In this document: positions 32,199-33,640 of the stretch, piece by piece
How positions within the stretch are numbered: the stretch's first letter is position 1
Layout of the letters: every line of letters begins with the position of its first letter
Origin: Acidilobaceae archaeon
GTDB taxonomy: Archaea > Thermoproteota > Thermoprotei_A > Sulfolobales > Acidilobaceae
Direction: 5' to 3'
Assembly: GCA_027051095.1 (NCBI GenBank)
Contig: JALUAM010000045.1
Coordinates: forward strand, 1 to 43,602
DNA length: 43,602 nt
Program-made: the position numbers and the translations under genes
Notes under the pieces: generated by a model
What the model was told of the DNA's origin: nothing
Databases searched by the model: none
Seen by the model: only the letters and a program-made list of their open reading frames with translations

Positions 32199-32861
32199 AT
32201 GGGTAGCCTTAGAATCCAGAAGGCCAGCGGGGCTCCTATAAGACCGGAGGAATTAAGCGACAGCGACGGCGAGGTCCTGGTGAGGCTGGCTAGAAGGAGC
32301 GTTGAGAGCTACCTGCTAAACCGCAAGGTTATCAAGCCCCCTGAGGACCTAGACCCGAAGCTGTTAAGGCCCGGGGCGGCCTTCGTGACCATAGACTCCG
32401 TGGAGAGCGGCGGGAGGAGAGAGCTTAGGGGGTGCATAGGCGCTATACGCCCGGTTGAGCCCCTGGCGGTCACTGTCATAAAAGTCGCTGTCGACGCCGC
32501 GGTAAACGACCCCAGGTTTCCTCCCATGAAGCCTGAGGAGCTTGATAAAGTAGTCTTTGAGGTCACAGTGCTTGGCCTTATGGAACCTCTTCCCGAAGAC
32601 CCTTCTCTAAGGCCTCAGAGCATAATTATCGGCGTCCACGGCCTTTACGTGGAAATGCCCCCATTCTCGGGTCTACTGCTCCCCCAGGTAGCCGTCGAGG
32701 AGGGGTGGGATGCCTACACGTTCCTGACGTGGACCTGTATTAAGGCGGGCCTGCCCGGCACATGCTGGCTAAGGAGAGATGTCAGGGTCTATAGGTTCAC
32801 GGCCGCTATATGGGGTGAGGTTGAGCCCAAGGGGCCCGTTAAGAGGAGGATTCTATCCTAG
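32199..32861 (+). CDS. AMMECR1-domain protein
   Basis: GAAFVTIDS...LRGCIGAIRPVEPLAVTVIKVAVDAAVNDPRFPPM; LLLPQVAVEEGWDAYTFLTWTCIKAGLP. Confidence 0.93.
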   Translation: MGSLRIQKASGAPIRPEELSDSDGEVLVRLARRSVESYLLNRKVIKPPEDLDPKLLRPGAAFVTIDSVESGGRRELRGCIGAIRPVEPLAVTVIKVAVDAAVNDPRFPPMKPEELDKVVFEVTVLGLMEPLPEDPSLRPQSIIIGVHGLYVEMPPFSGLLLPQVAVEEGWDAYTFLTWTCIKAGLPGTCWLRRDVRVYRFTAAIWGEVEPKGPVKRRILS

Positions 32862-32882: not shown

Positions 32883-32948
32883 GGCTCGGCGTCTCTACCA
32901 TTCCTCACAGGCATCCAATGCCTCGGCAAACCCCGTCTCCTCACGGCC
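32883..32948 (-). ncRNA. candidate box C/D-like sRNA with two perfect k-turns and CCGA D boxes (locus 2)
   Basis: Minus strand: GGC-CGT-GAGGA-GACGGGGTTTG(11)-CCGA-GGCAT-TGG-ATGCC-TGT-GAGGA-ATGGTAGAGACG(12)-CCGA-GCC. Confidence 0.75.
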
Positions 32949-33001
32949 AGCGTAGGACCTAGCGCCCGATCGGTATAAATTAGTGCTCCTGGAGGCTTTG
33001 T

Positions 33002-33640
33002 TCACGCTCCTTCCTTCCTCTCCGCTCTCATGTAGGCTTTGAGAGCATCCATTATGTCCTTTCGGGTCACGTCCGGCCACAGCTTATCAGTAAAGTATAG
33101 CTCTGCCCTGGATGAGAGTGTCGGGAAGAAGCCGCTAAGCCTCTTTGCCCCTCCGCTCCTGAAGACGAGGTCTATATATCCGAAGCTCTCCCTGATAAGC
33201 CCGCAGCCAACGTTCTCCTCCCATTCCGGGTAGTAGCATATAGCTACTGCTACGAACTTATCGCCTGGTTTACCTCCATCCCATAGCAGGTTTTCCACAA
33301 CGCCTAGAAGGCTCTTATCCATCATGTCCACGTCGCCGACAACTACGACGCGGAAGCCCCTACTCTCAGCCCATTCTACAGCCCTTCTGAGAGCTTCCCC
33401 TATAACAGCATTTATTATTTCCAGCTCTAAGCTCGTCCTCTTCCTACAGTTATCCCCGCTTAGCGCGTAGACGAAGATTCTCTCTACGCCGAAGCTCGCA
33501 AGGAAGTCTACAGTGTCGGCTGCCACCTTAGAACCTCTGATATAAGCAGCTCTCAGCGGGACTCCGTTAAGCCTGGCCCACCTCCTGTTACCGTCAGGTA
33601 TTAAGCCTACGCTTCGAGGCAGGCGGCTATCAAGATTCAT
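33002..33640 (-). CDS. uppS: cis-prenyltransferase (undecaprenyl diphosphate synthase family)
   Basis: VGLIPDGNRRWARLNGV, RSGGAKRLSGFFPTLSSRAELYFTDKLWPD. Confidence 0.92.
   Translation of the reverse strand: MNLDSRLPRSVGLIPDGNRRWARLNGVPLRAAYIRGSKVAADTVDFLASFGVERIFVYALSGDNCRKRTSLELEIINAVIGEALRRAVEWAESRGFRVVVVGDVDMMDKSLLGVVENLLWDGGKPGDKFVAVAICYYPEWEENVGCGLIRESFGYIDLVFRSGGAKRLSGFFPTLSSRAELYFTDKLWPDVTRKDIMDALKAYMRAERKEGA

Follow-up and report, generated by a model that had tools for sequence, protein, structure and literature searches.

The locus and its neighbourhood

The locus lies in the 140 nt intergenic gap between two convergent genes, AMMECR1 (32199-32861, plus strand; PF01871) and a cis-prenyltransferase gene (33002-33640, minus strand; PF01255), of the window, which is the whole stretch of 43,602 nucleotides analysed here. 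The gene calls and the two protein families bore out the placement given in the original prediction. Much of the gap is occupied by an element of 66 nt. On the minus strand, from 32948 to 32883, it reads GGC-CGT-GAGGA-GACGGGGTTTG(11)-CCGA-GGCAT-TGG-ATGCC-TGT-GAGGA-ATGGTAGAGACG(12)-CCGA-GCC, which agrees letter for letter with the predicted layout. Its features are listed in Table 1. The GTGAGGA and CCGA boxes are each present twice, and per motif they are one paired substitution away from the RUGAUGA/CUGA consensus. The spacers had been proposed to fit archaeal C/D guides, and with 11 and 12 nt they fall within the usual guide length of about 10-13 nt abutting the D and D' boxes. Two k-turns with a 3-nt bulge, tandem G.A pairs and flanking stems can be read in the window sequence. 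The terminal stem consists of 3 bp (GGC/GCC) and the D'-C' hairpin of 5 bp.

The TATA-box-like TTTATA (32979-32974, minus strand) sits about 26 nt upstream of position 32950, near which a putative archaeal transcript would begin, two bases ahead of the terminal stem. Counting both strands, the entire window contains this hexamer 21 times (2.4e-4 per base). A profile search of the host genome identified fibrillarin (PF01269, E = 1.5e-104) adjoining Nop5 (PF01798, E = 1.2e-77). To our knowledge, L7Ae is universal in archaea.

Table 1. Features of the guide RNA locus in window coordinates.
Feature	Position	Strand	Evidence
TATA-box-like TTTATA, putative own promoter	32974..32979	-	sequence
Terminal stem, 5' arm GGC	32946..32948	-	pairs with 32883-32885
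C box GTGAGGA (RUGAUGA with U5->G)	32938..32944	-	sequence; ATGATGA in orthologs L189, L190
D' guide GACGGGGTTTG, 11 nt	32927..32937	-	ACGGGG kept in 6/7 orthologs; candidate target 23S E. coli 2060-2068
D' box CCGA	32923..32926	-	sequence
D'-C' hairpin GGCAT-TGG-ATGCC	32910..32922	-	stem of other sequence at the same place in G001, G002, G003, G004
C' box GTGAGGA	32902..32908	-	sequence; GTGAAGA, ATGAAGA in orthologs
D guide ATGGTAGAGACG, 12 nt, conserved core GGTAGAGAC	32890..32901	-	9 Watson-Crick pairs to 23S GTCTCTACC
D box CCGA	32886..32889	-	sequence; CTGA in L189, L190, L204
Terminal stem, 3' arm GCC	32883..32885	-	sequence

The motif compared with chance and with known models

The full four-box motif was found once in the window and never in 300 windows simulated with a third-order Markov model. 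A relaxed motif, with any base at C position 5 and D position 2, averaged 0.017 occurrences per simulated window. The 5-bp inner hairpin taken alone gave a modest shuffle p of 0.022. Unaided RNA folding of the locus favoured another fold than the two-k-turn one. K-turns are not scored by standard energy models.

The locus had no Rfam match at the gathering threshold. At a permissive E-value only chance-level matches appeared, and of the C/D families just one overlapped the locus, the archaeal C/D sRNA model sR3 (RF01133), at 8 bits against a gathering score of 41 bits (E = 9.7), so the locus is not a member of it. The strict canonical pattern TGATGA/CTGA/TGATGA was absent from the host's own genome. 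In these archaea, C/D sRNAs can be under-called by finders that rely on a consensus (RUGAUGA/CUGA, Rfam).

Orthologs in related genomes

The original prediction had named a lack of conservation in related genomes as evidence against itself. On the contrary, six other genomes, four of the same genus and two of sister genera, proved to have orthologs whose D guide is again GGTAGAGAC, beside the D box. The pattern TGANGA-N1-6-GTAGAGAC-N-CNGA matched 5 of the 217 genomes of the order, namely that of the window, the congeneric G002, G003 and G004, and G013 from a sister genus; the control gave one match. Searching with the D' guide brought in two more, G001 from the same genus and G007 from another, and in both the same D guide follows at the D box. 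The C-D'-C'-D order is present in all seven orthologs, window included. A DNA search with the whole gap returned weak matches only, among them G001:C29 and G004:C1:1430259, which were later proven orthologs.

The G002 copy is syntenic. There, a radical-SAM-like gene, AMMECR1, the sRNA (minus strand) and a glutamate-dehydrogenase-like gene follow one another, and the prenyltransferase is missing although the sRNA is retained. Outside G002, the sRNA gene sits at other genomic places. The C/D pattern was not found in the gap adjoining the prenyltransferase in relatives. The syntenic anchor is AMMECR1 rather than the prenyltransferase.

The D'-C' hairpin, proposed to stand where a k-loop is expected, is present and recurs in the orthologs with different sequence. 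The stem is GGCAT/ATGCC in the window, GGGGTT/AGCCCC in G002, GGGCCCC/GGGGCCC in G001, CACC/GGTG in G003 and CGCC/GGTG in G004. Covarying stems of 4-7 bp are thus present in five orthologs, the window counted, and in G007 and G013 the stem has only 2 bp. Terminal stems are GCGGGC/GCCCGC in L199 and GGCGG/CCGCC in L204. The C and D boxes of G003 and G004 are exactly ATGATGA and CTGA, and their D' boxes are degenerate (TGGA or TCGA). Other degenerate boxes are the C' boxes of G001 (TGGAGA) and G007 (TGAGGT) and the C box of G002 (GTGGTGA). In the G001 ortholog (L199, G001:C29, position 1501), the upstream gene ends within the C box, whose TGA serves as its stop codon, an overlap that has been described for archaeal C/D sRNAs (PMC7994747). 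The upstream ORF there resembles an asparagine-synthase-type protein.

Complementarity to rRNA

The targets were read from the rRNA of two complete congeneric genomes (about 1.6 and 1.7 Mb), because the window's own MAG is without rRNA. The rRNA genes of both complete genomes contain insertions. In both, the nine conserved nucleotides of the D guide, GGTAGAGAC, form a perfect complement of GTCTCTACC in 23S rRNA. The match corresponds to E. coli 2608-2616, and its N+5 position pairs with U2611 in the peptidyl-transferase/macrolide region. Shuffled guides equalled it in 2% of cases (p = 0.02), a value in which the coincidence of the end of guide conservation with the end of complementarity is not counted. 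Guides have been defined by at least nine consecutive Watson-Crick pairs to rRNA with N+5 included (PMC4644070), and the D guide shows such a match, covering N+5, in the congeneric rRNA. The neighbouring C2606 is a predicted methylation site in six thermophilic archaea (PMC4644070). Judged from this complementarity, the D guide probably directs ribose methylation at U2611, in the catalytic centre of the ribosome.

Complementarity to rRNA had been proposed as a check for both guides, and only the D guide passed it clearly. The best site of the D' guide is 23S 2060-2068, with eight Watson-Crick pairs, one G.U pair and C2063 at N+5, and its p of 0.22 is not significant alone. Rival sites are 23S 2002-2013 and a 16S site with nine Watson-Crick pairs. 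The N+5 register moves in G003 and G004, and the match is imperfect in all species. The D' guide was therefore rejected as proof of a target, given the p value and the competing 23S and 16S sites. A 10-nt D' guide match near LSU nt 83 was discarded since it was antisense. The D' target is possibly C2063, and this assignment is weak.

The G-C pair at 3b.3n and the GAGGA/CCGA spelling

Both k-turns of the window have a Watson-Crick G-C pair at 3b.3n (C position 5 with D position 2) in place of U.U. In the window and in G013 the C/D and C'/D' pairs are both G-C. G003 and G004 have U.U as their C/D pair, and G002 has A-U as its C'/D' pair. With U.U, A-U and still other combinations present among the orthologs, G-C is one of the states that the k-turn tolerates at 3b.3n. 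By this comparison it is a permitted state and not a lineage-fixed invention. In published archaeal C/D sets, U:U is predominant at 3b:3n (PMC5689011). K-turns with G-C at this position fold with L7Ae and not in Mg2+ alone (PMC4382518).

GAGGA/CCGA cores were found in 39 of 60 relatives, although many single matches are due to chance according to a reversed control. G050 and G051, the cleanest of the genomes, had 58 short-loop C/D matches against 3 in the reversed control. In these two genomes C'5 and D'2 are coupled, with 13 cases of G-C (permutation p = 5e-5) and 15 of U.U. Among 20 fetched GAGGA/CCGA loci of the host's family, 12 had a second C[CT]GA box and a terminal stem of at least 3 bp, compared with 0.65% of shuffles, and nearly all of those loci carry a 12-nt C'-D spacer. 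In the family census of short-loop C/D patterns, matches outnumbered those of the reversed control only about twofold, so that single matches there are no proof. The recurrence across the order together with the G-C coupling indicates that GAGGA/CCGA is a recurrent variant. CCGA for CUGA had been regarded as unusual; its spelling was exact, but its rarity was overestimated. As to the compensation between the two substitutions, C'5 and D'2 are coupled in G050 and G051, and the G-C pair itself is not conserved among the orthologs.

Discussion

The occurrence of the motif beyond chance, the orthologs, the synteny in G002 and the presence of fibrillarin and Nop5 point to a genuine archaeal C/D box sRNA. 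With high confidence, the locus is predicted to be a dual-guide RNA about 66 nt long that is transcribed from a TATA promoter of its own. The guide-RNA reading of the original prediction is thus supported, also by the match of the conserved guide to rRNA, and its account of the structure is correct. The sRNA is conserved, was previously unannotated and uncurated, and has no Rfam match. The host is an Aeropyrum-like hyperthermophilic archaeon, and the guide RNA is of an ordinary kind, its two kinked motifs being spelled in a way that is uncommon but recurs.

After transcription from the putative promoter, L7Ae would fold both k-turns, C/D shut by the terminal stem and C'/D' by the 5-bp hairpin. 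With G-C at 3b.3n, the RNA is expected to be unkinked in Mg2+ alone and kinked upon L7Ae binding. Nop5-fibrillarin would then assemble on the L7Ae-bound RNA. The D guide would align 23S rRNA so that the nucleotide equivalent to E. coli 2611, a U in these archaea, becomes 2'-O-methylated, and the D' guide would probably pair with the facing region around C2063.

A C/D-like RNA with real k-turns and a real hairpin could also have its main job elsewhere, as a chaperone of rRNA folding or on another target, and not in methylation of U2611 and C2063. The two candidate sites, 2060-2068 and 2608-2616, are neighbours at the base of the peptidyl-transferase ring, a chaperone role has been proposed for dual-guide sRNAs with distant targets (PMC4644070), and the D' guide is imperfect in every species. 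However, the D guide pairs perfectly along its nine conserved nucleotides, N+5 included, and we consider this function rather unlikely. As the locus is directly downstream of the cis-prenyltransferase gene on the same strand, and L7Ae is known to bind k-turns in mRNA (PMC5539422), an L7Ae-binding element in the 3' UTR of that mRNA, acting in cis with no free guide RNA, has to be weighed as well. It is very improbable in view of the separate TATA-like box at the right distance, the orthologs located away from the prenyltransferase, G002 keeping the sRNA where that gene is missing, and the failure to find the C/D pattern near the prenyltransferase in other relatives; moreover, the conserved part is the guide, beyond the k-turns alone. 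The boxes are short and the whole window was scanned by eye in the first reading, so a chance arrangement of short motifs was also considered. Its probability is close to nil after none of 300 simulated windows contained the motif, and it is refuted by the six other ortholog genomes and their conserved guide. A TIGR-type array, in which several tandem guide units adjoin a tas gene, was rejected on the layout of the guides: a single two-guide unit lies between AMMECR1 and the prenyltransferase, and the orthologs contain no array.

The dual-guide C/D box sRNA thus favoured resembles the known archaeal ones working with L7Ae, Nop5 and fibrillarin in its C/D and C'/D' boxes, tandem G.A pairs, guides of 11-12 nt, rRNA complementarity over N+5, terminal stem, and the fibrillarin and Nop5 of its host. 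It differs from them by having CCGA twice and GUGAGGA twice (G-C, not U.U, at 3b.3n), and by the 5-bp hairpin that shuts D'-C' as a k-turn instead of a short k-loop. The GAGGA/CCGA sRNAs of the order (G050, G051; in family f1 L170, L173, L175, L179, L182 and L185) share the spelling, the 12-nt C'-D spacer and a terminal stem adjoining the 3-nt bulge, and L170 and L182 also the D'-C' hairpin, whereas most of them have a D'-C' loop of 3-6 nt and other guides. The 5' k-turn of U4 snRNA, bound by 15.5K/Snu13, is similar in its protein-dependent folding and in G-C at 3b.3n, which is the usual state there (62.6%) (PMC4914095). In contrast, U4 is eukaryotic and spliceosomal, with a single k-turn and no guide function.

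This genus-wide guide RNA carries a specific testable prediction, ribose methylation beside the peptidyl-transferase ring. In the ortholog set the same guide stands behind U.U, A-U or G-C pairs, which amounts to a natural experiment on 3b.3n in vivo. It is conceivable, though doubtful, that in hyperthermophilic relatives a sizeable subset of C/D guides has swapped U.U for G-C at 3b.3n, some with a closed D'-C' hairpin, and that the resulting symmetric two-k-turn guide is more L7Ae-dependent and more heat-stable than the textbook form.

Several related loci were noted. The C/D sRNA L170 (G025:C121:2000-2700) repeats the uncommon design of the window's, with a GGGG terminal stem, GAGGA/CCGA twice, a 12-nt C'-D spacer and a 6-bp D'-C' hairpin, CCCTGG/CCAGGG. 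In the C/D sRNA L182 (G008:C65:11931-12272), D' and C' are joined by a 5-bp triloop hairpin like that of the window, GCCTA-CGA-TAGGC, but the D box is CTGA. Two further C/D sRNA families are conserved in the host's family: L173, L184 and L185 have the common guide GGTGGGCTTTACCGA with D boxes alternating between CCGA and CTGA, and L177 and L178 the common guide TCCTAGCCAG. Another C/D sRNA (TGATGAGTTCYAGCCTT...TGAAGA), with CAGA or CGGA as D' box, is common within the genus (G003:C1:152307, G004:C1:143572, G005:C35:2005). The element GAGAGGGTTACTCCGAC..GGCCTAA.TGGAG.CGTGAGGA, with a possible hairpin, is conserved across families (G017:C8:10540, G022:C1:2654, G058:C211:282) and may be an RNA or a coding element.
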